Source: Verrucomicrobiota bacterium
Lineage (GTDB): Bacteria > Verrucomicrobiota > Kiritimatiellia > UBA8416 > SLMC01
Reading direction: 5' to 3'
Length of the DNA stretch: 35,948 nt
NCBI GenBank assembly: GCA_030018915.1
Contig: JASEHE010000006.1
Coordinates: 1 to 35,948, forward strand
The position numbers and the translations under genes were made by a program. A model generated the notes under the pieces. It saw only the letters and a list, made by a program, of their open reading frames with translations. It did not search any database and was not told the origin of the DNA. Positions 6,201-28,626 of this stretch are shown here, one piece after another (the first letter of the stretch is position 1; each line of letters begins with the position of its first letter).

Positions 6201-6476
6201 TCACTTGGGAAAGACCGCCAAAAAAGCTCTGAATTCCTTCAAGGCCAAGAGCAGCCCAATGAACATGCCAAAGGCAGATAGAACGCCCATCGTTATCGTT
6301 CCGAGACGGCCGGTAGCACGACGCTCCGCCTTGACTCCATGCGCCTCATCAGATTCGATATGAGCGTTGAGTTTCGACGAGAGGCCATCAAGCCTTTTCT
6401 CGTGAGTCTCAGTCCGTTCGTCGATGCGGATTAGAAGCTCGCGATCGCTCATATCCTCGCGCTTTTTATCACTCAT
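6201..6476 (-). CDS. XhlA-like protein: coiled coil plus C-terminal membrane segment
   Basis: A 91-aa protein from ATG 6476, overlapping the fibre gene's TGA (ATGA). Residues 1-55 form a charged coiled coil (ELLIRIDERTETHEKRLDGL). Residues about 60-83 are one membrane span (GTITMGVLSAFGMFIGLLLAL), leaving a short tail KEFRAFLAVFPK. This layout is that of XhlA/haemolysin-type holin partners and many phage lysis-cassette proteins placed right after tail fibre genes. No endolysin is adjacent, so its partner is unknown. Confidence 0.7.
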   Translation of the reverse strand: MSDKKREDMSDRELLIRIDERTETHEKRLDGLSSKLNAHIESDEAHGVKAERRATGRLGTITMGVLSAFGMFIGLLLALKEFRAFLAVFPK

Positions 6477-7312
6477 GGTGCCAGAACCTCGGCGCGAATG
6501 TCGCCAGTAATCGTACCGGCGCTTGGAGTGATCGTAAGTTTCGTAAGTTGTGCTGATCCGCTATATTCGCCACCGCCGGCGCATTCTCCGGCTGTTGCCA
6601 CACTGGCACCGCTCCAAATGGTGTAGGTTGATGTTATTCGCTGGTCTCGGCGATTTGGATACACTATCATCGTCACGGCACCGTAGTTTCCAGAGCCGAG
6701 ACCTCCGCCAGAATTGAACAGACGGATCGCCACCGCACCCGTCCCATAAGATGCAAACCCAACACCGTCGGTATAAACGCCATAGCATGCGTATTTATAA
6801 TTTGCGCCTGTATCATCGTTGAAAGTCATGTCCAAAACCGCATTTGCACTATTCTGAATATAGTTGATCGTGAGTCGAATAGGAAAGCTCGAACTCAAAT
6901 TCGTAAAAGCTACTGACGTAGCGGCGCTGACAGTCTTTGTTGAGACAATAGACCACCCACCGAGAATAATGCCATCGAAGCGCGCGGCCGTCGTGAATGC
7001 GCCGCCATTGATTGTCAAGGTTGAGACGAAGGTCGCAGGACTTGCATGGTACTCAGAGGCCGTGAATGTGGATACCCCATTAAATTTACTTGTGCCGCCC
7101 CAAGTATTGACGCCAGTCCATGAGTTGTCGCCAGCGAGTGTCGGCAGATCCCTGACGTCGGCGTTCGTTTTCCGCATCGCGTCGGCCAATGCTCGATTAT
7201 TCTGATTAACCGCGGCTGCATCGCGAATGTCGCGCGTCTCGGTCAATGTGTAAGGAGGGTTCTGGGACCACGCCGGGAGCGTAAAAGCCAGCGCTAGGAG
7301 TACTGGGCTCAC
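6473..7312 (-). CDS. Tail-fibre-like protein with Sec signal peptide
   Basis: A 279-aa protein from GTG 7312 that overlaps the stop of the 2088-aa gene (GTGA). Residues 1-16 (MSPVLLALAFTLPAWS) form a signal-peptide-like stretch with a likely cut near AWS or WSQ. Then come NQNNRALADAMRKTNADV and TLAGDNSWTGVNTWGG, typical of the stalk start of phage fibres. Next are beta-rich Thr/Ser/Gly repeats (TFVSTLTINGGAF) and a C-terminal beta domain. Only two cysteines are present (ACYG and GECAGG). The place after the ejection proteins and before small membrane proteins fits a receptor-binding fibre. The signal peptide is not expected for a normal phage fibre. Confidence 0.72.
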   Translation of the reverse strand: MSPVLLALAFTLPAWSQNPPYTLTETRDIRDAAAVNQNNRALADAMRKTNADVRDLPTLAGDNSWTGVNTWGGTSKFNGVSTFTASEYHASPATFVSTLTINGGAFTTAARFDGIILGGWSIVSTKTVSAATSVAFTNLSSSFPIRLTINYIQNSANAVLDMTFNDDTGANYKYACYGVYTDGVGFASYGTGAVAIRLFNSGGGLGSGNYGAVTMIVYPNRRDQRITSTYTIWSGASVATAGECAGGGEYSGSAQLTKLTITPSAGTITGDIRAEVLAP

Positions 7313-14550: not shown

Positions 14551-15156
14551 CTAAGCGAGCCATCCACTAGACTTGCCGTAAGCCTGTCCGATGCCAAGAC
14601 CGGCTTCCCAGAGAGCCGCCTGCTGGCCCGCCAGATGTCGCCGGCCTTCGGCCGCGCGCATTTCGCCAAGACCCTGCTGGAACATCTGTATGTCGCGCTG
14701 GGCGGTCATCTCCTCGCCCATCGCCTGGGCGATCATCTGCATCATGGCGCGCTGCGCCGCCACGTCGCCCGACCGTGCGCGGGAGAGAAGCTGGGCGAAC
14801 ATCTGGCTGTTCTGGAGCGCGATCCCGGAGAGCATTTGGGCGATGTTGCCTTGAATCTGCGCGCCCTGCTGGCCCAGAGCCTGCGCCTCGATCGAACCCC
14901 CTGTCAGGCCGCGTCTGGCCATCATGCCCATGAGGTCGGCTTGCTGGCGCTGGCCCGCGGCCTCCATGCCGGCGATCTGCGGGGCGACCATCTGGCCGCG
15001 CTGCGAAAGGATATTCTGCAATTCGGGCATAAACTGCGACTCGGTAGCCGTTTGCTGCGAGAGCATCCTGATGATATTCTCGTAGGAAGGCGCGGTACCG
15101 CCGATTTGTGGAAAAGTGAAAGGCTGGATAGTCTGCGCGTAATCGTGAGCGGCCAT
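14551..15156 (-). CDS. Internal virion protein (gp14-like), Gln/Ala/Met-rich, 201 aa
   Basis: ATG 15156 has GGGAGG about 9 nt upstream, and the stop of the nozzle-like gene lies 4 bp before the start. The product is almost wholly helical and unusually rich in Gln, Ala, Met and Gly (MMARRGLTGGSIEAQALGQQ; QMLSGIALQNSQMFAQLLSR), with no cysteine. The GSIEAQA-type segment is common in podovirus gp14-like internal core proteins that form the outer-membrane part of the ejection channel. Immediately downstream are the gp15- and gp16-position genes, so the three probably form one ejectosome. Confidence 0.7.
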   Translation of the reverse strand: MAAHDYAQTIQPFTFPQIGGTAPSYENIIRMLSQQTATESQFMPELQNILSQRGQMVAPQIAGMEAAGQRQQADLMGMMARRGLTGGSIEAQALGQQGAQIQGNIAQMLSGIALQNSQMFAQLLSRARSGDVAAQRAMMQMIAQAMGEEMTAQRDIQMFQQGLGEMRAAEGRRHLAGQQAALWEAGLGIGQAYGKSSGWLA

Positions 15157-15159
15157 GCC

Positions 15160-18009
15160 TCAATCCTCCCGGAGCGGCCGGTACTGAAGGGCTCCGCGAT
15201 AGAACTTCCAATGCTGTGTACCCGTATTGAGAATGTCGAGACTAATATATCTGCCCGAGACCTGGCCGTCAAGCGGAGCAGGCACGTCGCCGTAGACGAT
15301 GCCGGTGTCCTCATTGAGATAGACGAGCGAAAGCGGGACCGCCGTCACCTTGTCAACATAGGCGGCGATCGTCATACTGACGCTGTCGCTAGCATCGCGC
15401 AAGGGCGAAAATTCGAGTTTGGCGCCGAGGAGCTCCTTGCGCCTGAGCCAATTTCCAGCGTCAAAGTCCTTCGTCCTAATTCGGCTCGTGAAAGCCGCTC
15501 CGGCGTCGTCGTAGCCCGCATAGAGCGAATAGGTCTGGCCGTTATCAGCTCCGTCGCCGATGATAAGACGCTGCGCTGGAGTGAAAGTGAGTGCCGACAT
15601 GGCTGGCATATTGTTCCAAAGCGCCCAGCGATCCCGATAATCGAGCACAAGAGCATGGCTATTGTCGGCTCCGGAGGCGGTTGAAGTCGTGTAAAACAGG
15701 TGGTACTTATGATCGACGATTGCCGAGGCGGTCTCTGGGCGCGAGGCGCCCTCGTTCCAGTTGAAGCTACAATCCTGTAGCGAGATTCCGGAAATCGCTT
15801 GTGTTGCCGATTGGAAATCGAAGAAAGCGCGATAGGCCACAAAAGTCGCCGTGCCGATCGAAATGACGGAATTGTTGACCTGGCTGTTCCAGGTGGCCGT
15901 CGTCCGCGTGACAGCATTACAGGTTGTGCCAGTGGCGACAAAGAGTGAAAGAGTCGCATTTGTTGGGATCGTGAGGCTACACTGGAAAAGGCCCCAGGAA
16001 GTGATCGGGGTTCCGGGATTGCGGCACTGGCTAATGAAGTAGCCGGTCGTCGCCGCCGATAGATTAACTACAGTGATCGAAGCGACTGAGATAGTCTCAG
16101 GTGGCCCGGGCCTGATCGAGTGTTTGAAATACTGTCGCTGCGGCGAAGTGATAGGGACACCTAACGACTGAGAAACCATCGTGGAATAGGTGCCGCCCGC
16201 CGTAGTCGCTGACTGCGTAAAGAAGGTCATTGAAGAAATCGAGCTACTCGTGACCGAGACACCATAGTCGCGCCAGGTCGGCGTCGAAAGGCCGGTGTTG
16301 TATTCCACGGACTGCTGTAGTTCATAGAATGTCGGAAAACGAAAAGAATCATGCTGTGTCTTGGAATCTCCAATCTCGACTTTGATATGCCGTCCGGGAA
16401 GATTACCTGTCTCCGTGACCGACGAGACCAAAATTCCGTCAAGGAATACGGCAGTAAAACCATTTGCGGCACGACTGACGCGAAGCGAGTGATAGTTTCC
16501 ATTTGTCAGCAAGGATACTTGAGTTGTCTTGCAGACGGGATTGAGTACGTCAACGGAGACACAAAACTCTACCCGCGAAGTGTCATTAATGTCCTGGCTG
16601 AGGTTTACCTGAATTGTTTGAAGTGTTGTAGTATCGAGCGAGACCTTTACGACGCTCCACAAAGTATTGAGCGTGGATGTTGACCGAACGATCCAAGACC
16701 ATGTTCCCGTTGATGCCACGGCAGAAGTAGCCGCTGAAGCGACGGAGACAAGAGGGGCGCTAGATCTCGAATTCACAAGTTCATTTGATACTATCGCAAC
16801 AGAGCCGGCCGATGCGGTCCATGTGACGTTGCCAGTCAGATCCCCGTCGTCGAAATTATCGAGATAGTTGGCAATCGCAACCGCAGTCGTATCGACATCG
16901 ACCATCTCCCAGGTGTCATTGTTGAGGCCGCCGGTCGTCACGGCCCAAGTTGTCGGCACGACGTTATTGACGGAGATCGTGGCACTCAGCGGAGCGCCCG
17001 GACCAGATACCGTGAGATTGCCGGCCTCGAAGTCAGCCTGCCGCGTGTCAGTCGCGCTCACCGAATTGCCGGCCGCGCCCACGATCGTCTGGAGGATATC
17101 GTAGATGGGTTCAGAGACCCGCCAGTCGATGGAAGTCCCGCGCAGGCGCTCGACTCCACGCCGTGAGAGCCAGACAAGAGAACCGTCATACTCCTGGACG
17201 GAAGTACTCTCAAGACAACCAACCTCGCGCGAGAGTTCGCGCACTTGGAAGTCGTTATTGTCGAAGCCGTAGAGGCCGAAGAGGCGATTGGACGTGCCGA
17301 TGATATAGGTGTCGCCGTAAGTGCCCATGAGACATGTGATCTTCTCGCCGTCATTGACGCCAGTGATCGGCTGGATGAATGGGCTCGTTGACTGAGAGGC
17401 GGTCGTCCAATCCGCCCCGTCGAGATAGCCAGAGGCATAAAGGCGGCTTTGATTGCTGGCGACATCAGCAACCAAGACGCGATTTCGGAAGTTGCCGATG
17501 AGCCCGCCCAGCGGACCCGCTGATACGCCCATCGTCGATGCCACGACACCGTCCCAGTAGAAAAGCCCATCGATTTTGTTAACGCACCACAATTTTCCTA
17601 GAACCTGCGTGCAGGCTGTCTTTTCTGTGGGCGAAATGGTCCCTGTCAGCGCCGTGAAATTGCCCGAGTTCGTCGCCCGCCAGACCTTATCTGAAGAAAT
17701 GGCGACGACGTAGTGTGTGCCGTCTGGTGCACTGAACTGGTAAAGCCTACGGATCGCGGTCGGGGTAGAAAGCGCTGTGCCGTTGAAGTTGGCATAGCCC
17801 GGCCGTCGTTGAATCCCCAAGTCCCTGTCGTAGGTGACATTGAGTGCCTCCTGCAAGCAGCCATCGGCGATCACATGCGAAGCATAGCGGGTGACAAGAC
17901 CACATTCGGATGGACCCAGAGGAATGCTGGCAGCTTCAGGTGGCGCTGGTATCTCGACGGCCCGAGCCGAGCTGGCTGCGAGCGCCAGGGCGAAGAGAAC
18001 TTGGAGCAT
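15160..18009 (-). CDS. Tail nozzle-like (tail tubular B-like) protein with signal peptide and inserted lectin-like domain
   Basis: A 949-aa protein whose ATG 18009 touches the TAG of the adaptor gene. Residues 1-17 (MLQVLFALALAASSARA) are a clear Sec signal peptide. An N-terminal propeller-like part (about 50-310) contains GIQRRPGYANF, the RRPG motif common near the start of phage nozzle proteins. The last 190 residues (SAIVDHKYHLFY, LVLDYRDRWALW, LIIGDGADNGQTY) match the C-terminal pattern of the same proteins. Between them, at about 380-560, a DNFDDGDLTGNVTW start and a YHSLRVSRAANGFTAVFLDG strand suggest a concanavalin/LamG-like domain. Twelve cysteines fall in sequential pairs (36/51, 133/142, 226/265, 483/493, 662/677, 697/747), as in disulfide-bonded exported proteins. 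A signal peptide on a nozzle is highly unusual. Confidence 0.8.
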   Translation of the reverse strand: MLQVLFALALAASSARAVEIPAPPEAASIPLGPSECGLVTRYASHVIADGCLQEALNVTYDRDLGIQRRPGYANFNGTALSTPTAIRRLYQFSAPDGTHYVVAISSDKVWRATNSGNFTALTGTISPTEKTACTQVLGKLWCVNKIDGLFYWDGVVASTMGVSAGPLGGLIGNFRNRVLVADVASNQSRLYASGYLDGADWTTASQSTSPFIQPITGVNDGEKITCLMGTYGDTYIIGTSNRLFGLYGFDNNDFQVRELSREVGCLESTSVQEYDGSLVWLSRRGVERLRGTSIDWRVSEPIYDILQTIVGAAGNSVSATDTRQADFEAGNLTVSGPGAPLSATISVNNVVPTTWAVTTGGLNNDTWEMVDVDTTAVAIANYLDNFDDGDLTGNVTWTASAGSVAIVSNELVNSRSSAPLVSVASAATSAVASTGTWSWIVRSTSTLNTLWSVVKVSLDTTTLQTIQVNLSQDINDTSRVEFCVSVDVLNPVCKTTQVSLLTNGNYHSLRVSRAANGFTAVFLDGILVSSVTETGNLPGRHIKVEIGDSKTQHDSFRFPTFYELQQSVEYNTGLSTPTWRDYGVSVTSSSISSMTFFTQSATTAGGTYSTMVSQSLGVPITSPQRQYFKHSIRPGPPETISVASITVVNLSAATTGYFISQCRNPGTPITSWGLFQCSLTIPTNATLSLFVATGTTCNAVTRTTATWNSQVNNSVISIGTATFVAYRAFFDFQSATQAISGISLQDCSFNWNEGASRPETASAIVDHKYHLFYTTSTASGADNSHALVLDYRDRWALWNNMPAMSALTFTPAQRLIIGDGADNGQTYSLYAGYDDAGAAFTSRIRTKDFDAGNWLRRKELLGAKLEFSPLRDASDSVSMTIAAYVDKVTAVPLSLVYLNEDTGIVYGDVPAPLDGQVSGRYISLDILNTGTQHWKFYRGALQYRPLRED

Positions 18010-18726
18010 CTAGGGGACCGTGCGGTTAAGCGGCATCCCAGGCGTCAGGCCCGGACGGTAGCTCGGCCGGTCGTTGATCTCCCTCCGAAAACGATCGAGA
18101 CCGTCCTTGAAGAGTCCGAGATAGAGGCCGGCGAGGTCCGCTCGGCCGTCGATAGCCGCCATGTGCCCAGCGGCGTAGTAGGCGAGGAAATGATGATGAG
18201 GATTAAATTCAGCCGTGCCGCCGAACGGCTCGTCGGTCGTCGCCTTCATGTTGGTCGTCTGAGCCCAATATTCGTATCGGACCGTTCCGGTCGATTGGCC
18301 CGTGTCGGGCCAGGGATAAAAAGCGATCTTGGTCCGGCTCGAAAAGTTGATGTAGTAGGATGTCGGCTGCCCCTTGGCTTCGATCCAGTTCCAGCCCACC
18401 TTGCCGGCGAGAGCCTCGGGAGTCGTCTCTCCAAGCTCGCGATATTTCCAGGTGACGCGAGCGATCTGAAGAAAGTCGGACGGTAGAGCATAATAAGTCG
18501 TCCCAGCCGAGGTTTCAAAGAGCGAACTCTTGCGGATAGCCTTAACGTCCAGATTGGCGACGCGCTGGGCCTCATTGAGCCAGCCGTCAATGGTGGCGGT
18601 CGAGAAGCGCAGGCGGTTGCCATTGTCTAGAGCGAGGGCACGCGACTCAGTGCGGAGGTCCGCGAGCGTGAGCGCGTCAGCCGCGCTCGGCAACCACAGA
18701 ACCAAGATGAGAAGAACGCCGTTCAT
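18010..18726 (-). CDS. Tail adaptor-like (tail tubular A-like) protein with signal peptide
   Basis: The start is ATG 18726 (238 aa), which overlaps the upstream TGA and has GGAG upstream; an ATG 69 nt earlier has no such support. Residues 1-19 (MNGVLLILVLWLPSAADAL) form a Sec signal peptide with a likely ADA cut. The mature part is typical of head-tail adaptor or tail tubular A proteins: LADLRTESRALALDNGN, ATIDGWLNEAQRVANLD, then YALPSDFLQIARVTW and a FNPHHHFLAYYAAGHMA helix near the end. It lies directly upstream of the nozzle-like gene, the standard adaptor-nozzle order. No cysteine was noticed. The export signal conflicts with the usual cytoplasmic assembly of this part. Confidence 0.78.
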   Translation of the reverse strand: MNGVLLILVLWLPSAADALTLADLRTESRALALDNGNRLRFSTATIDGWLNEAQRVANLDVKAIRKSSLFETSAGTTYYALPSDFLQIARVTWKYRELGETTPEALAGKVGWNWIEAKGQPTSYYINFSSRTKIAFYPWPDTGQSTGTVRYEYWAQTTNMKATTDEPFGGTAEFNPHHHFLAYYAAGHMAAIDGRADLAGLYLGLFKDGLDRFRREINDRPSYRPGLTPGMPLNRTVP

Positions 18727-19142
18727 CGCCGGTCTCCCACGCAGGGGTAATCGCGTTCGCACATCGCGGCCTCCCCTGGATTGCGGCGGTGGCAATCTTC
18801 ATGGAGTAGGCAACCCAGGAAGCTCCGGCCAATCGCGATGACCGGCTTGCGCCCGTACCACGCGGGACGGCCGGAGTAGCAGGCCCGCGGATAGTAGTTG
18901 ACCGGCCCGCCACTGTCCGTCTTTCCCTTGATCCAAACATGCGGGGACTGGACGCTCCGGCTGGCCCGCCTGCAATGTCGTCCCACCGCTGCGTCATCGC
19001 AGGCGATGACATGGAAGTCGGGATAGGTCGTTCGAGTGCAGTCCGCGCGGTGGAAGGCCGAGAACCCGCAGCCCAGGAGAGCGGCCAGAGTGATAATGGA
19101 AGCGATGAAGAACGCGACAATTCGCGCCATGCGCTCGTTCAC
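18723..19142 (-). CDS. Cysteine-rich putative lipoprotein with HExxH motif
   Basis: A 139-aa protein from ATG 19142, overlapping genes on both sides by ATGA. Residues 8-25 (IVAFFIASIITLAALLGC) make a lipoprotein signal with C25 as the likely lipidated cysteine (LLGC). The mature part has eight further cysteines and ends with FLGCLLHEDCHRRNPGEA, where H114-E-D-C-H118 is an HExxH zincin motif. A tiny exported metallopeptidase, or a non-enzymatic Zn/disulfide protein, is possible. It sits between fibre-like and adaptor genes, so it could be a virion or envelope component rather than a lysis gene. I recognise no exact family. Confidence 0.65.
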   Translation of the reverse strand: MNERMARIVAFFIASIITLAALLGCGFSAFHRADCTRTTYPDFHVIACDDAAVGRHCRRASRSVQSPHVWIKGKTDSGGPVNYYPRACYSGRPAWYGRKPVIAIGRSFLGCLLHEDCHRRNPGEAAMCERDYPCVGDRR

Positions 19143-19513
19143 GGGATGCGCTCCACGGTCTTCGCCCGCTCCGCGAGCCGCTTGAATTCGGCGAGCTGCT
19201 CCGGGGTCAAATTGATGACCTCGATCCGAGACGTAGGCCCCGTCTTCGCCAAGTTGATTTTCTCAACACGTAGGCAGGGCGAGGCGCACCCGGTCAAGGA
19301 TAGAAACAAGGCGAGCCAGACAGAGCAGGCGGACCGTATACCACCTGCATCCTTCACGGCGCACTTGTATCCGGTATTGCCTGCGGAATCAGCGTCGAAT
19401 GATTGCCACAGCAAGCCGTGCGCTCGGCATCGCCCTCGATTCCATTTGCGGCGTCGGGCATATGGGTAGGCTCCGGTCATAAGAAGAAGAACGGCAAGTA
19501 AAATTAGTTGCAC
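19139..19513 (-). CDS. Membrane/lipoprotein, 124 aa, with a possible internal lipoprotein start
   Basis: The longest reading starts at GTG 19513, overlapping the fibre gene's end by 10 bp, and stops in an ATGA overlap with the next gene. Residues 1-15 (MQLILLAVLLLMTGA) are a membrane or signal segment, followed by a basic stretch (RRRKWNRGRCR). A second hydrophobic stretch at about 65-76 ends in LSLTGC, a good lipobox. An in-frame GTG at 19357 (VKDAGGIRSAC) would make a free-standing lipoprotein of about 72 aa, ending in a charged helix (TPEQLAEFKRLAERAK). This resembles nested Rz/Rz1-type spanin coding, but in one frame. Which start is used cannot be decided here. Confidence 0.6.
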   Translation of the reverse strand: MQLILLAVLLLMTGAYPYARRRKWNRGRCRAHGLLWQSFDADSAGNTGYKCAVKDAGGIRSACSVWLALFLSLTGCASPCLRVEKINLAKTGPTSRIEVINLTPEQLAEFKRLAERAKTVERIP

Positions 19514-21393
19514 GTGTTCGCCACCGCCGCCGCGACTTGGTACCAGTCCGTCCCATCACTGCACACTCGCACCACATCACATGGCGTGAGTGCTACGTCA
19601 GCGCCTGCTGCCGTGTTGAAGTTGGCGTTCGTGTCGAGGGTGATCGTATCTACGGTGTCGATATTAGTCACGTCCATGCAGCATCCGCGATTCGCCGCTG
19701 CGGGGGCGGTGAATGTGTTTGTGGTGTCCGTGGTAACATTCCCGCCAGCGTTGATAGTTTTGATTCCGCCGCAGGCATCTGCCGTGATCGTGGCGCCCGC
19801 CGCGATAGTTTGTGCCGCGCCGTTGTAGACAATAAGGCTTCCTTGTACTAGGGTGTCTGAGGCGTTGCTCCCTACAACGATGGCGGGACTTGTGCCGTCA
19901 ACAGTCAACGTCCCACTGCTCATGTGAAGCTTAGTACCTGGGTTCCCCCCCGAAGTGCCGGCCCCGATACCAAGACTACCGCTGACTAGTGCCAGGTGAG
20001 TGGTAGCGCCTGAGTCATTACTGAATACCACGCTGGAATTAGCCTTTATTGACAAGCTATGAGCTTTGGTGCCCGGTTGGTGCGCTCCCGCTGCCGTGAC
20101 GTGTTCTAATTCTGTAGATACTGTAGTATCGCCATTGGTAAGGGCCAGGTTGGCATTGTTTCCGACCGCCCCCTTTAGTCGCAGATACGCGAAAGCCGAA
20201 GCTGTAGGTTGGATCGTAACGGAACCGCCCGTCACCGTCATTGTAGTTTCAACCCCCAATCCTCCGCTTGCGACATTTTTCCCACCAATATTGCTTACGG
20301 TTAATGAACTTCCGGCAATGGTGACTTGCGTTGAAATGGTCACGCCTAGTTGCGCCCGAATATCGAAGAGATTAGAACCGCCATCGTTCGTCGTAACGGT
20401 AAGGGTAGAACGATGAACTACGAGCCCTGATGTCCCGCCGATGGTAGCGTCTTTAAGTACGCAAGATGCCGTTCGGCAGAATAAATATGAGGAAGCGGGC
20501 GTGGCGTACCCAAATTCCAAATCAACGCCCAAATAACTATCTATCGTATCGGCATTCACTCCAAACACTTGCAAATGTCCGGCCCGACTGCCCGCTGCCC
20601 CGGTTCCAATACCGAGAGTATTGACTCCAACTCTTGAAATTCCGGCGTCTCTTGTTCCTGCACCATCGGCGCTAGTAGTGAAAGCGAGTCTATCAGACGT
20701 GCCCATGTTGAACGAATTGCCGTCAGAGTACATGCTGCGCCCAGTTGATCCCGCCGACAAGGCATTCGCTTCTGTGTCATACCACGAGATTCCAGCATAG
20801 TTCGTCAGATAGCGGGCCATGACGCCGTTACTGGGCGAGCTTCCGGCTCTAAGCGCGAGCGTTCCACCGGCTCCTCCGGTAACGCTCAGATTACCGCCCA
20901 CAGTCAACCTATCGGCCGCTCCGATCGTGGTGCCCACGGCGAGCGTTTGAACGCGGTGACTCGTGTCCATGAGCTTGTCGGTGTCCACAGAATCTAGGGC
21001 AAGCTTCGCCGTTTGGACGGCCGCGTTGAGGAGTTTGTTCGCCGTGACCGCGCCCGAAGCGAGTTTTTCTGTCCCGACGGCTCCAGTGTCGATCTTGTCG
21101 GAGTCCACAGCAAACGAATCGATCTTCGCTCGGGTCACGGCATTCCCGGCGATCTTTTCAGTACCCACAGCCCCGGTGGCGATCTTGTTCGACTCGACCG
21201 CGAAGCTGATGAGTTTGGCGCTGGTAATGGCGTCGGCTGCGACCTTTTCCGTGTTGACCGCGCCGGTGGCGATTTTGTCGGAATCTACGGAGAAATTGCC
21301 GACGCCACCAGACGCCAAGATCGCGCCGCCGAGGTTTGCGTATGCGGACTGCGGGCCAGCGGCCCACAGGAGAAGAATGAGCCACAAGCCCAT
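19504..21393 (-). CDS. Secreted tail-fibre/spike-like protein with SDK-type repeats (629 aa)
   Basis: The start is ATG 21393, with GGAGG 5-6 nt upstream; the longer reading from 21462 lacks this. Residues 1-19 (MGLWLILLLWAAGPQSAYA) are a Sec signal peptide. Residues about 30-135 hold ten or so imperfect 10- to 11-residue repeats of the form AVxTEKIAxxAVTxxKI, a pattern of trimeric fibre stalks. A long Thr/Ser/Gly-rich beta region follows (STLTVTTNDGG, TISTQVTIAGSSLTV). The C-terminal domain has most of the eight cysteines (GCCMDV, LTPCDVVRVCSDG, ANTCN), probably disulfide-bonded. The repeat region is shared with the 211-aa protein encoded upstream. Likely a receptor-binding or capsid-surface fibre. 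Confidence 0.72.
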   Translation of the reverse strand: MGLWLILLLWAAGPQSAYANLGGAILASGGVGNFSVDSDKIATGAVNTEKVAADAITSAKLISFAVESNKIATGAVGTEKIAGNAVTRAKIDSFAVDSDKIDTGAVGTEKLASGAVTANKLLNAAVQTAKLALDSVDTDKLMDTSHRVQTLAVGTTIGAADRLTVGGNLSVTGGAGGTLALRAGSSPSNGVMARYLTNYAGISWYDTEANALSAGSTGRSMYSDGNSFNMGTSDRLAFTTSADGAGTRDAGISRVGVNTLGIGTGAAGSRAGHLQVFGVNADTIDSYLGVDLEFGYATPASSYLFCRTASCVLKDATIGGTSGLVVHRSTLTVTTNDGGSNLFDIRAQLGVTISTQVTIAGSSLTVSNIGGKNVASGGLGVETTMTVTGGSVTIQPTASAFAYLRLKGAVGNNANLALTNGDTTVSTELEHVTAAGAHQPGTKAHSLSIKANSSVVFSNDSGATTHLALVSGSLGIGAGTSGGNPGTKLHMSSGTLTVDGTSPAIVVGSNASDTLVQGSLIVYNGAAQTIAAGATITADACGGIKTINAGGNVTTDTTNTFTAPAAANRGCCMDVTNIDTVDTITLDTNANFNTAAGADVALTPCDVVRVCSDGTDWYQVAAAVANTCN

Positions 21394-21404
21394 GAGTCCT
21401 CCGG

Positions 21405-21800
21405 TCAGTAGAGTTGCGTTAAGACGAGCCTCGCGCCGGCCGCGGCATCCGAAACGCACCATATCTGGAATGTCTGGTCTATTGCCAGCGTCCAGCCTAG
21501 TCTCGGCCCGATCCGGCGACCGTAGTTGATGTTTCCAGCCGTAGAACTTACGCTGGCCGTGAAGGCGCAGAAGGCGGTATTGGTCGAATCATCGTTGAAT
21601 ATTTCTAGAACGAATCGCTTGACGACACCGTCGAGACCGGAGAGGGCCCGCGTACTGACATCGAGTTGGACGGCCGTCGTGTTGACCAGGACGTTTCGGA
21701 CAGATCCCGTGCCCTTGGCGGTCTCATAGACATGGGTTTGCGCGCTCGCCAAAGACGGGACCATGTCGAGAACGGCGAGCAGCACTAACAACTTGACCAT
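21405..21800 (-). CDS. Exported beta-rich protein, 131 aa
   Basis: I place the start at ATG 21800 (MVKLLVLLAVLDMVPSLASA), 5 bp after the upstream stop, because it gives a clean signal peptide ending ASA before QTHVYETAK. A reading from 22166 in the same frame runs antiparallel to nothing useful and lacks support. The mature part is beta-rich (VRNVLVNTTAVQLDVSTRAL, FVLEIFNDDST) with exactly two cysteines (AFCAF and IWCVSD), suggesting one disulfide. There is no strong SD, so translation is probably coupled. Function unknown; a small virion-surface or fibre-tip protein is plausible from context. Confidence 0.68.
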   Translation of the reverse strand: MVKLLVLLAVLDMVPSLASAQTHVYETAKGTGSVRNVLVNTTAVQLDVSTRALSGLDGVVKRFVLEIFNDDSTNTAFCAFTASVSSTAGNINYGRRIGPRLGWTLAIDQTFQIWCVSDAAAGARLVLTQLY

Positions 21801-21804
21801 GCGA

Positions 21805-22440
21805 TTACTCGCAGTTTCCACAGCCATCGACATGAATGCTGGCTGAGTTCGAGCAGACGCCGAAGCCGCCAGTATTGCCGCCGCGGATGCAGATGATCTT
21901 TCCACTGTCAGGTCCCACTGAGCCCCACATGAGTTTAGAGGTCTGGATTGCGTCGCGGAGAATTTTCTGAGTGTTGACCGAACCAGATGCCAGCCTATCG
22001 GTTTCCACAGCACCCACGGCCAAGTGGCCTTTTTGTACGGCGAGAGTCTGAATCTTTTCCGAGTTAACAGCGTTTCCGGCCAATTTCTCCGAATCCACGG
22101 AGAGTACGGCAAGTTTAGCGGACTGGATCGCCAAATTGGCAATGTCAGCATTGGCCACCGATGCATCGGTCAGACCGCCAGCCGTGATGTGCAACGCCTT
22201 CCAAAGGAGCGATGACGTGCCCAGGTCGGCGTCATTGGTCGTCGTGGGAATGACTCCGCCGGTCGAGTCGATGCAGGCTTCCGCGCCGGACGGTCCAGCG
22301 CACCATATATCGCCGTTGTTGGCGGGCGAGGTAATCCTGGCGAAACTAATGTCCGAGACCGCGGCACCCCAAGTCAAGAGGCAAATCGCCAGGAGGAGGC
22401 AGATCCTCGTTTTCTGCGTCCGGCTCAAAATCCAGTTCAT
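21805..22440 (-). CDS. Exported fibre-like protein with the same SDK repeats, 211 aa
   Basis: ATG 22440 has a perfect AGGAGG 5 nt upstream. Residues 1-34 contain a basic start (SRTQKTR), a hydrophobic core (ICLLLAICLLTWGAAV) and a possible cut near SFA. The middle has several units of the SVDSEKLAGNAVNSEKIQTL type, close to those of the 629-aa protein downstream, so the two probably share ancestry or co-trimerise. The mature region has six cysteines, in DIWCAG, EACID, KIICIR, FGVCS and a CGNC end, consistent with disulfides or metal binding. It is the first of the run of exported proteins after the capsid genes. Confidence 0.72.
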   Translation of the reverse strand: MNWILSRTQKTRICLLLAICLLTWGAAVSDISFARITSPANNGDIWCAGPSGAEACIDSTGGVIPTTTNDADLGTSSLLWKALHITAGGLTDASVANADIANLAIQSAKLAVLSVDSEKLAGNAVNSEKIQTLAVQKGHLAVGAVETDRLASGSVNTQKILRDAIQTSKLMWGSVGPDSGKIICIRGGNTGGFGVCSNSASIHVDGCGNCE

Positions 22441-22449
22441 CCAGTCCTC

Positions 22450-23034
22450 CTAGTATCTCCTGATGCGGCCGCCGGTCCTGACGACTGGCCGGAAGCGCTC
22501 TAGGTTCGGTAGATCGGCGTTATCCGGGTCGAGCCGTCTGGCGAGTTCCTTGTAACGATGGGCCCGGCGTTGGAATTCGGAATTGCCGACTTCCATCGCA
22601 ATCGACTTCTCGCAAGCGCGCATGTACTCCTGCTGCAACTCGTGGTCGTCGCCCTTCGGGTAGCGGCCCATCTCGCGCGAGGTGAGCATGTGCTTACGGA
22701 AGAAGTCCTCATGTTCCCGCATCTCCTTGCAGGCGGATTGGCGTTTGGCGCCTATGAACTTGTGGGCCTGCGGGGACATCGCATCCAGGGCTCGCTGACG
22801 CCGCTTGATGCGAACCTCGATCGCCGAGGTGTCGATATCCTTGATGTGCCCGGGCGACAGATGCGCGTCCGAGTTGTCATCATCGGAGACTCGGATACGA
22901 CCATGAACGGCATTCAGATACCGAGTTTCGCCGGCGATCTCGCCACGCAGGCGCTTTTCTTCCTCTATCGTCAGAAGCGTGAGTGGACGCTTGCGCGGTC
23001 CACTCCGCGTGTTCGCCTTCGCGGTGAGTTTCAT
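22450..23034 (-). CDS. Hypothetical virion-region protein, 194 aa, charged and helical
   Basis: ATG 23034 to TAG 22452-22450, between the major capsid protein and the exported cluster. The product is rich in Arg, Glu and Lys and mostly helical (LLTIEEEKRLRGEIAGETRY; EVRIKRRQRALDAMSPQ; DFFRKHMLTSREMGRYPKGD) and has one cysteine near the middle and one near residue 140. No signal peptide is present, which marks the border of the export cluster. No family was recognised. The place just after the capsid gene is often used by head-completion or small packaging proteins. Confidence 0.7.
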   Translation of the reverse strand: MKLTAKANTRSGPRKRPLTLLTIEEEKRLRGEIAGETRYLNAVHGRIRVSDDDNSDAHLSPGHIKDIDTSAIEVRIKRRQRALDAMSPQAHKFIGAKRQSACKEMREHEDFFRKHMLTSREMGRYPKGDDHELQQEYMRACEKSIAMEVGNSEFQRRAHRYKELARRLDPDNADLPNLERFRPVVRTGGRIRRY

Positions 23035-23061
23035 GAGAGATACTCGGTGCCGTCTGTCGCC

Positions 23062-23952
23062 TTAACTCGCGTTGTGGCCATAGACGAACGGCCAATTCAC
23101 GGCGGATACATTGGATGACATATATCCGGCGTGCTTCGAGACGAGAGTATCCATCTCTCCCGCGAAGAAGAACTCCACGGGGTTCCAGTCGTACCATCGG
23201 AGGAAGCGCTTCATCTGGCGCTGGTTGATCATGAACCAGTTGGTCTGATCCGTCAACCAGTTGTGCCACACGGCGAGCTTGTACTTGCCTTCGTGGAAGT
23301 TTGGGTTGTTGATCGCCGTATCGACCTTCCCCTTGGACTTGATCAGCTCGTAAGCCTGCTCCTCCAGATTAGTCGGCACAAGGAGCATGTCCGGGAAAGT
23401 CGCCGCCTGGATGTTGTCGCGGTTGGTCTTGAACTGGATCATGAGCCGCCGCGTCGCCTCGACATTGGCTGGCGAGAAGGCGGAAGTCCCGGAATTGCTC
23501 TGGTTCGAGCCGCCGACATCAGAAGTGTGCGCCGTGTTGCACAAGGACAGCGTGTCCGCCACCGTCGTCGTGCTAAAGGCACCGTTAAAAATGCTGGAGC
23601 CCAGACTCTCCCGCTTGGCCCGGAAGCGTCGCGCGAGTCCCTGGACCTGTTCGCGCACGATGCCGTACATATCGTTGCGTCGAAGCTTCTTGGTCACCTT
23701 AACGCCGAGAGCATACTCGACTTCCTCGGTCGATTTGCGGTAAGACTGCTTGGACTCGTCGTAGGAGATCTCGCCGTCGAATACCGCAACGTCGCCCAGG
23801 TCGCCGATCAGGGCCTCATAGACAATCGCCTGATCTGGCGTTTTCTGATCGAAGAAAGCACCGATCATGCTCGAGAAGTCGCCGTACTCGACCGCGAACC
23901 AATCCGACAGGTCCTTTTGGACGAAGAACGTGTAGTTGCCCTGGTTCAGCAT
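23062..23952 (-). CDS. Major capsid protein
   Basis: A 296-aa protein from ATG 23952 with GGAGGAG upstream. The pattern is that of Mu gpT/HK97-fold head proteins: an N-terminal segment with FAVEYGDFSSMIGAFFDQ; a middle helix with RRFRAKRESLGSSIFNGAFS; FSPANVEATRRLMIQFKTNR; the conserved MLLVPTNLEEQAYELIKSKG followed by NPNFHEGKYKLAVWHNWLTD; and a C-terminal WFMINQRQMKRFLRW. These strand and helix landmarks are common in phage capsid subunits. Its place two genes after the scaffold-like protein supports the call. Length is near the usual minimum for the family. A strong promoter lies one gene upstream. Confidence 0.88.
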   Translation of the reverse strand: MLNQGNYTFFVQKDLSDWFAVEYGDFSSMIGAFFDQKTPDQAIVYEALIGDLGDVAVFDGEISYDESKQSYRKSTEEVEYALGVKVTKKLRRNDMYGIVREQVQGLARRFRAKRESLGSSIFNGAFSTTTVADTLSLCNTAHTSDVGGSNQSNSGTSAFSPANVEATRRLMIQFKTNRDNIQAATFPDMLLVPTNLEEQAYELIKSKGKVDTAINNPNFHEGKYKLAVWHNWLTDQTNWFMINQRQMKRFLRWYDWNPVEFFFAGEMDTLVSKHAGYMSSNVSAVNWPFVYGHNAS

Positions 23953-23976
23953 GCTCGTCTCCTCCCTGATGCCGGC

Positions 23977-24005
23977 CCTGGGGCGGCGAAATCATCCGCC
24001 CCGGG
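23977..24005 (-). promoter_or_regulatory. Strong hairpin between capsid-associated and capsid genes
   Basis: On the minus strand GGGGCGG and CCGCCCC pair around a 9-nt loop (ATGATTTCG), and CCC/GGG extends the stem past one bulged A. There is no T-tract, so it is not a textbook terminator. It lies about 25 nt upstream of the capsid gene's start and might protect the capsid mRNA 5' end or mark RNA processing. Confidence 0.6.
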
Positions 24006-24021
24006 ACCCTTCTTCAGCGAT

Positions 24022-24798
24022 CTAGTCTAAAGGGTTGTACGATGTGTCTACCGGTATGAGAACCTGCCTGAATTTCACATCTCCGCCGGTGCCGACGTTG
24101 AGATTGTGATGCACGGCCGGGTCGAGTTCGATCCAGCCTTCGTCTCCAGCCCGGCGGAATTCATTCTTAAGCACGCGCCATGGCAGTGAGCCAGCTGCGG
24201 CGGTAGATTTGATCTTGTCGGCCGCAGTGTTGAGCGCCACCGTCTGATGGAACTTGCGGCGCATGATGAGGACGCGCGAAGTGTTGTCAAGGGTAGTCGT
24301 CGAGGCTGACTTGATGGTAGCAGTGCCGGAAGCCGAGGCCGTCTGATAGAGGACGAGACCGGAGGCGGTACCCGAGCGCACATAGATCCATGAACCGTCG
24401 ATATCGTCCTCGATGCTTGTAATCGTCAGGACGGTTGAAGTGGCCGAGGCGACGGCCACATCGTTGCTGGTGTCGTTAGCCATCTCCGCGCCGACTTCGC
24501 AGCCTGGCAGGAAGGGCTCTACGCCACGCACGGAGCCGCCGGTTCCGCGGCCGCCGGCCTGCTCGGTCTGCTTGATCGTGCCGGCGTCCGGATCGGCGTC
24601 GGTGGTCGCCAGCGCGTTGTGCAGCTCGGCCAGGAGACCAATGGAGTCGGCCGCGGCTCCAGAGGCTACGATCGCCACCGAACGATTGTTCTCGTCGGTC
24701 ACGCCCGGCATGATGACTGCACCCTGATTGATATTGGTGAGATTGCCATCGATAGGCAGGTACAGGAGGCGAGAGGGCCGGTTTCTGACGATCTGCAT
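24022..24798 (-). CDS. Capsid-associated (possible decoration) protein, 258 aa
   Basis: The start is ATG 24798 (MQIVRNRPSRLLYLPIDGNL), with GGAGG 6 nt upstream; an in-frame ATG five codons earlier would overlap this SD. It is the first gene after a strong promoter. The protein is beta-rich with many Ala, Thr, Ser and Gly (TSTVLTITSIEDDIDGSWIY, TIKSASTTTLDNTSRVLIM), and no cysteine other than the one in GCEVGAEM was noticed. Genes directly upstream of major capsid genes in this class often encode head decoration or capsid-assembly proteins. That is the best guess; the exact family was not recognised. Confidence 0.7.
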   Translation of the reverse strand: MQIVRNRPSRLLYLPIDGNLTNINQGAVIMPGVTDENNRSVAIVASGAAADSIGLLAELHNALATTDADPDAGTIKQTEQAGGRGTGGSVRGVEPFLPGCEVGAEMANDTSNDVAVASATSTVLTITSIEDDIDGSWIYVRSGTASGLVLYQTASASGTATIKSASTTTLDNTSRVLIMRRKFHQTVALNTAADKIKSTAAAGSLPWRVLKNEFRRAGDEGWIELDPAVHHNLNVGTGGDVKFRQVLIPVDTSYNPLD

Positions 24799-24832
24799 TG
24801 AGACCTCCAACATTAGCGCGATCTGTCGCGCC

Positions 24833-24850
24833 GAGCCGACGTATCGGCTC
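24833..24850 (-). promoter_or_regulatory. Leader hairpin with UNCG-type tetraloop
   Basis: In the about 100-nt leader between the promoter at 24903-24931 and the 24022..24798 gene, GAGCCGA and TCGGCTC form a perfect 7-bp stem closed by TACG (UACG in RNA, a UNCG-class tetraloop). It may stabilise the capsid transcript. Confidence 0.6.
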
Positions 24851-24902
24851 TTAGAGTCCTAGATGCAGATCAGGAAGGATCGAGATGCGTAAGAGTCGCT
24901 GA

Positions 24903-24931
24903 ATTGTAACGATACGATACCGCGTTGTCAA
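24903..24931 (-). promoter_or_regulatory. Sigma70-type promoter for the capsid genes
   Basis: On the minus strand TTGACA (24931-24926), a 17-bp spacer and TACAAT (24908-24903). It sits immediately after the TGA of the zinc-ribbon gene. The predicted start is near 24896, upstream of the capsid-associated and major capsid genes. Confidence 0.85.
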
Positions 24932-24939
24932 GCACAAGA

Positions 24940-25281
24940 TCACGCGAGATAATTTTTCGAGCCGCACAGAGGGCAAGCAGCGCCCGCTGGAACGACCCGA
25001 TTTCCATGCGTCTCCGAGAGCGACGCGCCAGCCAGGGTCGTGCCTGTCGTTGTCGTCTTAGTTACGGCCGCCAGACCGCCATCACCGGAATAGGTGCCGC
25101 CGCGAGCGGTCTTGGCCGCATCGACGAGAAAACCGCATTGCCTGCATGGCACCATGCGCTTAGATGATCCGCGCCCCTGCCCCTGGCCGGAGCGGGCGCT
25201 GTTGCGGCGCAGCCGCCCGCTGCCGGCCGTAGGACTCGGGAGAAACTTCTCGCCGTCACCCTGGAACTCGGGTTCTCTCAC
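24940..25281 (-). CDS. Zinc-ribbon protein, 113 aa
   Basis: GTG 25281 directly follows the scaffold-like gene's TAG; the TGA is followed at once by a promoter. Two knuckles, C46-RQ-C49 (VPCRQCGF) and C103-PL-C106 (ACPLCGSKNY), frame a 50-residue Gly/Thr/Ala loop, an unusually long insertion for a zinc ribbon. The N-terminal 45 residues are Gly/Arg/Ser-rich and probably disordered. The place between scaffold and capsid genes suggests a small structural or assembly factor, but similar proteins also bind nucleic acid. The family was not recognised. Confidence 0.68.
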   Translation of the reverse strand: MREPEFQGDGEKFLPSPTAGSGRLRRNSARSGQGQGRGSSKRMVPCRQCGFLVDAAKTARGGTYSGDGGLAAVTKTTTTGTTLAGASLSETHGNRVVPAGAACPLCGSKNYLA

Positions 25282-26100
25282 CTAGCCCCTGTTGAACTTG
25301 GGCGCCGGCTCTTTCGGGAACTGGACGCCGTTCGGATCGTTCTTGTGCTGGATTCGCTTGCGCGTCTCCGCTGATAGACTGTCCTCGTCGACGCCTACGA
25401 TGAATCCCCATTTGCCGTCCGGTGACTTGTACTCCGCGCCAGACTTGATCGCCTCCTCCGGCATTTCCGGCTCAGGATCGGGCCCGCCGGGAGTCGGCGA
25501 TGGATTCGGATTCACCTTGCCTCCTTTGCCGGGCGTGCGCCCTGGAGTGCCGCTAGCTTCGGCGATTTTCCCGCGCGCGTAAGTCTTGGCGTGATTGATT
25601 TCCGCTTTGAGCCTGTCCGGATCGGCGCGCGTCTCGAGCGGTAGTCGGTCTAGATAGGTTTTCATGTGCGCCCGGAGATTGTGAACCTTCGGATCGACCG
25701 TCTGTGCGTCGTCGATCGCATCGCGTACGTTCACGCGACTGGCAAGGTCCAGATTCTGATTCCGCAGTTCGTAACCCTCCACCTCGCGCAGTATCTCGTC
25801 GAAAGGCCTACCGAGCTGCTGTTCGATGTTATCGCGCTGATCCTTCGTGCAGGATCGCAGGGAAGCCGCCGTGACTTTGGCAGGTTGGGGCAATGAGACA
25901 GGAGTCTGTTGCGTTCTGAGCCGCGCGTTCTCGGATTCGAGTTCCGCGATACGCTTGGCATCCGCGACGGCCGGGTTCTCTGAGCCATCTCCGTCGTTTC
26001 CTTCCGGCGCTTCGGGATCGGGCTGTGCTTCCTCGCTTTCTGGCTCCGTCTCTTCTTCTGGCGCGGTCGGCTTGGCTGGTTTGCCCTTGAGTGTTTTCAT
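25282..26100 (-). CDS. Putative scaffolding protein, 272 aa
   Basis: ATG 26100 overlaps the upstream TGA (ATGA). The N-terminus is very acidic and Pro-rich (TAPEEETEPESEEAQPDPEA), followed by a helix likely to be coiled coil (AKRIAELESENARLRTQQTP), more helices to about residue 180, a Gly/Pro linker and a short basic end (APKFNRG). Acidic start, coiled coil and flexible tail between portal and capsid genes are the hallmarks of phage scaffolding proteins. The last part contains YKSPDGKWGFIVGVDEDSLS, which looks like a small folded domain. The call is from composition and gene order. Confidence 0.7.
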   Translation of the reverse strand: MKTLKGKPAKPTAPEEETEPESEEAQPDPEAPEGNDGDGSENPAVADAKRIAELESENARLRTQQTPVSLPQPAKVTAASLRSCTKDQRDNIEQQLGRPFDEILREVEGYELRNQNLDLASRVNVRDAIDDAQTVDPKVHNLRAHMKTYLDRLPLETRADPDRLKAEINHAKTYARGKIAEASGTPGRTPGKGGKVNPNPSPTPGGPDPEPEMPEEAIKSGAEYKSPDGKWGFIVGVDEDSLSAETRKRIQHKNDPNGVQFPKEPAPKFNRG

Positions 26101-26510
26101 GCGATTACCCTCCCTCGGTGTCTCTCGGTGTTGGTGGCCGACGCCTTGGCATGCAGGCTGTCGAGTTTCTGCTTGAGATTAACGATCTCATCATTGAGCG
26201 CGGCGATCTTGTCGTCCGCGTGTTCAACGTTGGCGACGATGCCGCGATAGGCCCTAGCTGCGGCGGCGCGGCGCTTTAAGCGCACGACCTCGCGCTGCGG
26301 GTTGAAGTCTGCCGGCTCCTCGCCGTCCAGATCATGGGCGTTCATCGCTTCCTGGGTTTTGGCGCTGTCCTCAATGTCCTCGCGCAGCGCTTTCCAGCCG
26401 GGATGCTCGGCCAGTTCCTTCACCCGGGCAAGGCGCTTGGCGCGTTTGGTGCGAAATTCTATCGACTCCTCAAGTCTGACGGCGAAGAGCTTTTCATCAG
26501 TGGTCAGCAT
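26097..26510 (-). CDS. Coiled-coil protein between portal and scaffold genes, 137 aa
   Basis: The start at ATG 26510 (MLTTDEKLFAVRLEESIEFR) is chosen for the AGGAG 8 nt upstream, which overlaps the portal's stop. The frame is open further upstream, but only through the portal's 3' end. The product is almost entirely helical and charged, with a long coiled coil in the C-terminal half (NDEIVNLKQKLDSLHAKASA). It overlaps the scaffold-like gene by ATGA, and the two may work together in head assembly (inference). Confidence 0.72.
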   Translation of the reverse strand: MLTTDEKLFAVRLEESIEFRTKRAKRLARVKELAEHPGWKALREDIEDSAKTQEAMNAHDLDGEEPADFNPQREVVRLKRRAAAARAYRGIVANVEHADDKIAALNDEIVNLKQKLDSLHAKASATNTERHRGRVIA

Positions 26511-26520
26511 TGTTGGTCTC

Positions 26521-28626
26521 CTAACGACGCCTGCCGTTTGCCATCGGGCCGCCCATACCCGGAGGCGGGACCATGTTGCCCGCCGCCTGCGGCGGACCTC
26601 CGGTTGGCATTCCCGGCCCCGGCTGGCCGGGGCCTCCCATTCCAAGCGCGCCCTGGCCCGCACCAATGGCCGAGACGAGTTGTTCGAGATTGACCGGCTG
26701 GCCGCCCATCATGGCTGTCACGCCGTCGGGCTGCATCTGGACTTGGAAGCGCTCCGGGCGCTCGATGCGGCTGGCAGCGACAAAATCGTTCCAGAGCTCG
26801 ACGACCGCCATTGGCTTCATCTGCATCACGAATGGAAAGCGTTGTAGAGCAACCGCGATAGCTGTGATGCGCTGCATCTCCACTTCCGGCGAGATGGCTG
26901 GCTTGATCGGCTTGAGGGCGGCCTTGATCTTTGGGTCGGCGAATACGGCCGTCGGCACAGTTCGCTCCTGCTCGCCTTCGTAGCCAGCGGTGATGGCAAT
27001 AGATGACCCGATATTCTGGAAATAAAGCGCGCGCAAGAGATCGGTCGCAGCCGGCACGGACCGTTGCCACTCGCCGACCATGTCCTCGGTGCGGATATCG
27101 GAGCGCTGGAGCAGCATCGCGGTCTTGGCGGCCGGGGCGTGAGGATCTTGCGGGGCCTCCTGGCCGGACTGTCCCTGCGAGACGCCCAAGATGAAGTCGA
27201 GCATACGCTGCAACAAGCCCTCCTCATCGAGTGAAGTATTCGTGCGAGAGGTGTCTTGGATGGCGAGTTGCCGCGGTGCCATCTCCGCGCGCATGTAGTT
27301 GTCTGGCAAATAGAGTACGCGCCCAGGGACGAAGTAGGCATATTCGGCGCCGAGATCGACGCGCTCCTTGAGCGTCTCCGGAAACAACAGCGTTACCGAA
27401 TCTGTTAACCGTCGCTGGTTGGAGCGGTGGCGGTGGAGCGCATTGATTTCCCGGAAGAGCTTCTCCGAGTCCTCGAGCAGCGAGGCGCCTAGGAAGCGAC
27501 CGTCTGGCCGGCGCACGAGCCGAAAGGGGACGATGCAGGGCACATTCCTGCGGACCGCGTATGCCTCCCAGCGTAGTGATTTGTCCTTCTCCATGTCCCA
27601 GATGACGACATAGCGCTCGGGGATGGAGTCGCCGTCGATGTCCTCCGACACGATCAGATAGGCGAGTTGATATGCCGCCTCCTCGGGCGAGACGTTGATG
27701 CCTTCCAGCGCTGCGCGGCTGCGGTCCCAGTCGTCTAGCATCGCTCCTGCGGAGGCCCGCCGCTTTACTTCCTCCGCCGGACCCTTGTCATAGTAGCCGA
27801 GTTTGGTCAGCATCTCGAAACGCTGCGGCGTTTCGGTGTATTGATAGCCGTAGAGGCGCATCTTTTCGAATGCCTGAGCGTAAAGTGGCGCCCAAAGGAA
27901 CTTGGCGAGCGGGAACGTCGTGAATTCGGGACCGTTTTGGGCGAGAAAGTCGATCTCAAACTCGACGTTAATCTCATTGCCTTCGATGAGTTCGGCGAGG
28001 ATCGCCTCATGCTCCGCCTCGGTGATGCCGGCCGCTTCTGGAGTCTCGTAGTCAGCGCGAAACTCGTCGGGGCTCGCGTAAATGCGGTAGTCGCAGCCGT
28101 GTTCGATGCGTCGCGCCCACTGGCCATGAATGAGGGCCACGCGGTCGCGAAAGGCGGGGACGATTGTGTCCTTGAGGCACTCGTTGAAGTTGCAGTCGTA
28201 TTCCGCAGTCCAGTTGAGGGCAGTCTCAGCCTGATTGAGGTCCTCGCGCTTGACTCCCGGCATCGGCACGGCGACATAGGTCCTCGCCGGATCGGAAAAA
28301 ATACTTTTAATGATAGAGGCGCGCATGGCTCGCAGATAAGCCGTCGCGAGACGAATGTCGATGCTCGAGGACGCCTCCGGCCCGAACGGGAAATCGACGT
28401 ATTCCTCAGCGCCGTCCAGGAAATCGGCCAGAGCTTTCATCTTGGTCCGCATGGAGGACGTCGCGCGAATATTCTCCTCGATCATCTTGCCAATCTTCTG
28501 ATCAAGGCGCTCGCGTTTGGCCTGCTGCATATTTACCTTGCGAGCGACGTAAGCCTGCTCAACGGCGGCGACGGCCATGGCGGATTGGGTTTCGGCGTCC
28601 GGAGGTGGCTTGAGCCGGAAATACAC
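26521..28626 (-). CDS. Portal protein, 701 aa
   Basis: GTG 28626 has GGAG 6-7 nt upstream. Features of the large podovirus-type portals are visible: an N-terminal helical clip region, a WTAEYDCNFNECLKDTIVPA segment, QNGPEFTTFPLAKFLWAP, a run of conserved residues around RLVRRPDGRFLGASLLED, and the stem-like helix DSEKLFREINALHRHRSNQR. The last 70 residues are Gly/Pro/Met-rich and probably disordered. Position after the terminase block and before the scaffold-like gene is the classic packaging order. At 701 aa it is in the size range of P22- and T7-like portals. It forms the dodecameric DNA gate of the head. Confidence 0.88.
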   Translation of the reverse strand: MYFRLKPPPDAETQSAMAVAAVEQAYVARKVNMQQAKRERLDQKIGKMIEENIRATSSMRTKMKALADFLDGAEEYVDFPFGPEASSSIDIRLATAYLRAMRASIIKSIFSDPARTYVAVPMPGVKREDLNQAETALNWTAEYDCNFNECLKDTIVPAFRDRVALIHGQWARRIEHGCDYRIYASPDEFRADYETPEAAGITEAEHEAILAELIEGNEINVEFEIDFLAQNGPEFTTFPLAKFLWAPLYAQAFEKMRLYGYQYTETPQRFEMLTKLGYYDKGPAEEVKRRASAGAMLDDWDRSRAALEGINVSPEEAAYQLAYLIVSEDIDGDSIPERYVVIWDMEKDKSLRWEAYAVRRNVPCIVPFRLVRRPDGRFLGASLLEDSEKLFREINALHRHRSNQRRLTDSVTLLFPETLKERVDLGAEYAYFVPGRVLYLPDNYMRAEMAPRQLAIQDTSRTNTSLDEEGLLQRMLDFILGVSQGQSGQEAPQDPHAPAAKTAMLLQRSDIRTEDMVGEWQRSVPAATDLLRALYFQNIGSSIAITAGYEGEQERTVPTAVFADPKIKAALKPIKPAISPEVEMQRITAIAVALQRFPFVMQMKPMAVVELWNDFVAASRIERPERFQVQMQPDGVTAMMGGQPVNLEQLVSAIGAGQGALGMGGPGQPGPGMPTGGPPQAAGNMVPPPGMGGPMANGRRR

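Follow-up and report, generated by a model that had tools for sequence, protein, structure and literature searches.

Tailed phages are generally viewed as assembling in the cytoplasm, and the locus described here raises the question of whether the outer part of a short tail can be made of exported proteins that are locked by disulfide bonds. We report that a clade of uncultured short-tailed phages, represented by the window (the whole stretch of DNA that was analysed, 35,948 nucleotides; contig JASEHE010000006.1), appears to send outer tail parts, and not heads, across the host inner membrane. Specifically, we consider it probable that in this SU10-like clade the outer tail proteins are exported through Sec and subsequently locked by disulfides, and that export does not extend to the portal, capsid and ejection proteins. 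The tail may thus be built outside the cytoplasm, since its outer parts are apparently exported and the cysteine pairs of the nozzle come and go as disulfides do.

The nozzle was modelled with AlphaFold using an alignment of ten homologues as input, and the model has a mean pLDDT of 58.7, with most of the propeller at 70-89 and the insert at residues 321-592 below 50. The top Foldseek matches of the model are tail nozzles, i.e. those of Pseudomonas phage Pa223 (9nwi_Y, E 2.9e-14) and Escherichia phage SU10 (7z47_G, E 1.5e-10), with further matches to cyanophage A4 and VP1 and, lower down, to T7 and P22; using VIA the Z scores were 30.4 against Pa223 and 28.1 against SU10 (7z4b_DW, 457 residues aligned). 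Both the platform and the beta-propeller of the nozzle fold are present, and the variable insert is modelled poorly. Judged by this model the 949-aa protein is a tail nozzle. The preliminary description of the locus, which had called it nozzle-like, was right in this, because solved tail nozzles come first among the structural matches, a SU10-type adaptor gene adjoins the ORF and PHROG tail fibre matches lie nearby (Table 1). The adaptor matches the Pfam family SU10_adaptor (PF24175; 86.6 bits, cut-off 27), and its fold gave Z scores of 12.7 against Pa223 and 11.4 against SU10 (7z47_A). The 652- and 211-aa proteins matched the PHROG tail fiber family with E values of 1.1e-16 and 3e-10, respectively, while the portal matched SU10_portal with an E value of 7e-7 (28.5 bits, below the cut-off of 30) and the MCP matched Phage_capsid_4 with an E value of 3.6e-7. 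An internal, ejection-type role of three further genes is suggested by their position after the nozzle.

Table 1. Features of the window; residue numbers refer to the nozzle, and scorer values to the signal-peptide scorer described in the text.
Feature	Position	Strand	Basis or remark
Tail nozzle ORF, 949 aa, 12 Cys, signal-peptide-like N terminus	15160..18009	(-)	ORF; Foldseek/VIA fold match
Predicted nozzle signal peptide, residues 1-17, cleavage after 15 or 17	17959..18009	(-)	Scorer 5.05
Cys pair 36/51	17857..17904	(-)	Both or neither in 10/10 homologues
Cys pair 133/142	17584..17613	(-)	Both or neither in 10/10 homologues; hairpin in model
Cys pair 226/265	17215..17334	(-)	Both or neither in 10/10 homologues
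Cys 483 and 493, candidate pair	16531..16563	(-)	In variable, poorly alignable insert 321-592, pLDDT <50
Cys pair 662/697 (earlier 662/677)	15919..16026	(-)	Both in 10/10 full-length homologues
Cys pair 677/747 (earlier 697/747)	15769..15981	(-)	Both in 4 and neither in 6 of 10
Tail adaptor, 238 aa from ATG 18726, 0 Cys, signal-peptide-like N terminus	18010..18726	(-)	SU10_adaptor
Fibre-like protein, 652 aa, signal-peptide-like N terminus, 8 mature Cys	19504..21462	(-)	PHROG phrog_892; scorer 5.03
131-aa protein, signal-peptide-like N terminus, 2 Cys	21405..21800	(-)	Start inside 253-aa ORF 21405-22166
Fibre-like protein, 211 aa, signal-peptide-like N terminus, 6 mature Cys	21805..22440	(-)	PHROG phrog_892; scorer 5.88
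279-aa protein after internal virion genes, signal-peptide-like N terminus, 2 Cys	6473..7312	(-)	Scorer 4.53
Three putative internal (ejection-type) genes, no signal peptide, no Cys	7309-13575, 13579-14550, 14551-15156	(-)	Position
Head genes (portal 26521-28626, MCP 23062-23952, neighbours), no signal peptide	22450..28626	(-)	Pfam; scorer
Terminase large subunit	31060..32724	(-)	PHROG phrog_2, E 1e-21

The family was assembled through a search with the MCP, which led to viral contigs at approximately 74% identity, followed by searches with nozzle, MCP and adaptor alignments, and comprises 12 distinct nozzles including that of the window. Single-sequence scans of viral contigs with the nozzle and adaptor gave no close relatives, 94 further genomes from a set of 95 related to the bin that contains the window had none either, and genome contigs searched with the MCP or nozzle alignment gave no relatives. 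Moreover, when 50,697 phage records were searched by tblastn with these two proteins, no match was returned and thus no close relative in a named phage, and sequence similarity of the kind expected within Kuravirus was not found. A portal search of 288 genomes of the class gave, beyond the window, only a weak match of 59 residues (E 9.3e-4), which was not used.

The 12 cysteines of the nozzle are located at residues 36, 51, 133, 142, 226, 265, 483, 493, 662, 677, 697 and 747, as stated in the preliminary description, where they were paired consecutively. The six gaps between consecutive partners total 138 residues; among 200,000 random placements of 12 cysteines a sum of at most 138 occurred in 0.4%, and all six gaps were at most 50 in 0.6%. 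With null frequencies of this order, and since any even number of cysteines can be paired in sequence, the clustering constitutes modest evidence only.

For the analysis of co-occurrence we used an alignment of ten sequences, the window nozzle and nine homologues, two of which are partial (L022 and L024) and were counted as missing past their reliable part; these were later exchanged for the full-length L070 and L075. The cysteine counts do not include L011, L010 was unaligned, and L034 was excluded because its adaptor and nozzle are both frameshifted, with a signal-like stretch visible in another frame. A Cys column was considered variable if at least two rows have Cys and at least two others lack it, and its partner was defined as a column with the identical pattern no more than 80 residues away. 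Applying these settings, 16 of the 19 variable Cys columns (0.84) were partnered and form eight disjoint pairs (36/51, 80/118, 133/142, 226/265, 277/290, 677/747, 803/817 and 896/907, respectively), and the three unpartnered columns are all within the variable insert. Null columns of other residues, matched for frequency and position, gave a mean fraction of 0.04, and 0.84 was reached in none of 5000 draws; the draws come from the same alignment, such that shared ancestry, which can make patterns alike, is allowed for. The numbers of partnered columns for Met, Trp and His were 0/19, 2/22 and 0/4, respectively, and commoner residues reach fractions as high as 0.42 owing to their large number of columns. 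Ten T7-like nozzles without signal peptide served as control and are unlike the clade in that their cysteines are few (39 of 8046 residues compared to 128 of 8952) and unpaired by co-occurrence (none of six variable columns partnered). With L070 and L075 in place of the partial rows, 16 of 20 columns were partnered, Cys 662 and 697 are present in all ten sequences, and all four C-terminal pairs are either complete or absent in both L070 and L075.

A lack of cysteine conservation among homologues, named earlier as an outcome that would speak against disulfides, is therefore not what we observed, since the variable cysteines vary as pairs. This gain and loss in pairs strongly supports, at the level of sequence, that the nozzle would carry disulfide bonds. 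For three of the consecutive pairs, 36/51, 133/142 and 226/265, the homologues support the original assignment, but 662/677 and 697/747 are unsupported and the homologues support the last four cysteines pairing as 662/697 and 677/747. In the secondary structure of the model, Cys 133 faces Cys 142 across a hairpin made of the strands 132-136 and 139-143; this predicted register is the sole geometric support for disulfides.

Signal peptides were predicted using a simple home-made scorer, not SignalP, and by this scorer the window nozzle has a predicted Sec signal, i.e. a hydrophobic core together with a small-x-small motif. A hydrophobic signal-like start is present on all 12 distinct nozzles (the window included), which were chosen by homology. 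Of those that were scored, nine out of ten nozzles and ten out of ten distinct adaptors clear the cut-off; the exception is the L023 nozzle, where the hydrophobic core begins beyond residue 37 and there is no close upstream start codon. Most of the N termini in the clade end in small-x-small motifs, which are typical of signal peptidase sites. The nozzle model aligns from residue 23-25 to residue 1 or 2 of most solved nozzles, and the adaptor model from residue 15-20 to the beginning of most solved adaptors, with the alignment beginning at chain residue 7-11 in the SU10 and T7 adaptors. Because the window proteins align to the starts of most solved chains only past their N termini, the latter represent additions. 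Residues 2-45 of the nozzle include no other start codon, and this speaks against an additional form that stays in the cytoplasm. Across the clade, adaptor, nozzle and fibres have signal-peptide-like N termini that the solved homologues lack, which points to export of these proteins. Among named relatives, which were fetched by capsid or terminase similarity, none of five annotated adaptor or stabilisation proteins clears the scorer, and no signal peptide was seen in the ORFs read from the marine nozzle-like relatives L010 and L011. Pelagibacter phage HTVC023P (L040:18448-20523), a named capsid relative, has 218- and 461-aa proteins with signal-peptide-like N termini, and one relative has two tandem adaptor genes (L013:12514-13934), each with such an N terminus.

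Genes were also compared by class. In a tally of eight loci, none of 53 head genes and none of 21 internal genes clears the scorer cut-off; for the exported class the number is 42 of 43, which is partly circular because this class had in part been selected by N terminus. The exported class has 236 Cys in 16,319 aa (zero, even and odd numbers in 7, 32 and 4 proteins, respectively) and the head class 97 Cys in 14,416 aa (13, 21 and 19, respectively), and among Cys-containing proteins the number is even in 32 of 36 exported (one-sided P 1e-6) versus 21 of 40 head proteins. The 21 genes of the internal class (from the window, L008, L009, L023, L025, L027 and L035) have only two Cys in 12,039 aa, and both are in one L025 ORF whose start is over-extended across the preceding gene. 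Long internal-type genes of the named relatives have 0-1 Cys each. The even mature counts reported earlier for the exported neighbours, 2, 2, 6 and 8 in the 279-, 131-, 211- and 652-aa proteins, respectively, were reproduced; two ORFs with hydrophobic N termini had been omitted, however, and their numbers are odd (five Cys in 19139-19513, and nine in 18723-19142, one of them lipobox-like). These two ORFs, located between fibre and adaptor, have lipobox-like Cys (LLGC, LTGC) and possibly represent lysis lipoproteins, or are not genes. The 211-aa family retains the Cys pair 47/56 in six of seven rows, the first Cys being displaced in the seventh, and while the window adaptor lacks Cys its relatives in L013 and L035 have Cys at matching places.

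Solved tails provide some insight into what sets the clade apart. The SU10 tail is reported to have a dodecameric adaptor and a hexameric nozzle (PMC9509320). The window phage and SU10 (a Kuravirus; adaptor gp11, nozzle gp17) have the adaptor Pfam family and both folds in common. In the SU10 chains the first aligned residue is 2 in the nozzle and 7-9 in the adaptor, which leaves the N-terminal extensions of the window proteins unmatched. Likewise, Pa223 (9nwi) is the best match for nozzle and adaptor alike, and its chains are both aligned from residue 2, with no counterpart of the extension. The window clade thus departs from SU10, whose solved adaptor and nozzle chains lack an N-terminal signal peptide, and for this reason we refer to the clade as SU10-like and do not place it in Kuravirus. 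In filamentous phages, virion proteins cross the inner membrane aided by host secretion and assembly is periplasmic or takes place in the membrane, but these phages are tailless, extruded and unrelated to the window phage, which by comparison would export its tail module only. In searches of open-licence papers we recognised no report of a tailed phage with an exported adaptor or nozzle, which is not proof that there is none.

Our data suggest the following sequence of events. Fibres, adaptor and nozzle would be made with Sec-type signal peptides and leave the cytoplasm, while the portal, capsid and ejection proteins would stay unexported. We infer that the extensions are cleaved after Sec export and that oxidation occurs outside the cytoplasm, where the nozzle would be locked by the intrachain disulfides 36/51, 133/142, 226/265, 662/697 and 677/747, as probably would other exported proteins. 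In the most speculative step, the DNA-filled cytoplasmic heads would meet and join the exported tails once lysis opens a breach in the inner membrane. The wider proposal that virion assembly is split, with heads filled in the cytoplasm and complete disulfide-locked tails built outside it before the two are joined at the lysis breach, is put forward tentatively, as a real but somewhat doubtful possibility.

The genome bin containing the window (90.5% complete) gave no DsbB, VKOR, DSBA or Thioredoxin_4 match, and DsbB was matched in none of 57 related genomes; if the bin is the host, oxidation would for this reason need another route. An Omp85-family outer membrane protein is present in the bin. 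Phage and bin have a tetranucleotide correlation of 0.87, at the lower margin of the 0.875-0.948 obtained within the bin itself (with the sampled bin stretches L048 and L049, GC 0, dropped), and in the CRISPR array of the bin, with three repeats, two spacers and two flanking stretches have at least 11 mismatches to the phage loci tested. The link of the phage to the bin as its host is weak and unproven.

The preliminary description took the cysteine pairs as independent evidence that the protein folds in an oxidising compartment, which goes too far. T7 gp11 and gp12 have the same folds as the window adaptor and nozzle, respectively, and in the report on T7 tail structures (PMC6702177) disulfides are given for both (nozzle C504-C554, adaptor C133-C171), although neither has a signal peptide. 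A disulfide in a virion hence does not tell where it was formed, and oxidation could follow lysis, which speaks against our preferred explanation. Ordinary virion disulfides formed after release, with a tail that folds in the cytoplasm and hydrophobic N termini that serve another role, would also agree with the bin being devoid of Dsb and VKOR matches. We nevertheless regard this as unlikely, because both cysteine density and pair turnover are far above those of the ten T7-like nozzles (16/19 versus 0/6), and because N termini of one type are common to several unrelated tail proteins.

The N termini might also be retained as anchors, such that the inner membrane would hold the tail parts and be the place where heads dock, with no periplasmic release. 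This fits the hydrophobic core in every intact homologue read, but is distinctly improbable given the small-x-small ends of most N termini and the solved homologues that begin just past them. That nozzle, adaptor and fibres are secreted for use outside the virion, e.g. in blocking receptors or superinfection, is very improbable indeed, since a 45-kb relative contig has a single nozzle match and the loci listed show no additional adaptor or nozzle that lacks a signal peptide. The chance that the Cys pairs bind metal ions is close to negligible: some are closely spaced, but the cysteines are gained and lost in twos, not fours, and the window pairs are 9 to 70 residues apart and not of CxxC type. 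Sec export followed by disulfide formation remains the reading we prefer, and were the outer tail exported, the joining of heads and tails would be spatially separate from DNA packaging, which would change the view of lysis and virion completion in such phages. The component parts are already known, while their export would be new, and the Cys pairs and N-terminal extensions make the proposal simply testable.

Finally, the window has a tRNA-Asn gene (anticodon gtt) at 5327-5402 and, at 6201-6476, encodes a charged 91-aa protein with one C-terminal hydrophobic stretch, which is a holin-like candidate with no Pfam match. Lysis-type genes in the relatives include an amidase gene in L009 and, in L025 and L023, genes for M23 and M15 peptidases. 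Moreover, a large ORF upstream of the portal in another relative (L035:130-1746) reads like a GroEL chaperonin, and several named relatives carry an annotated GroES gene close to the portal or capsid.
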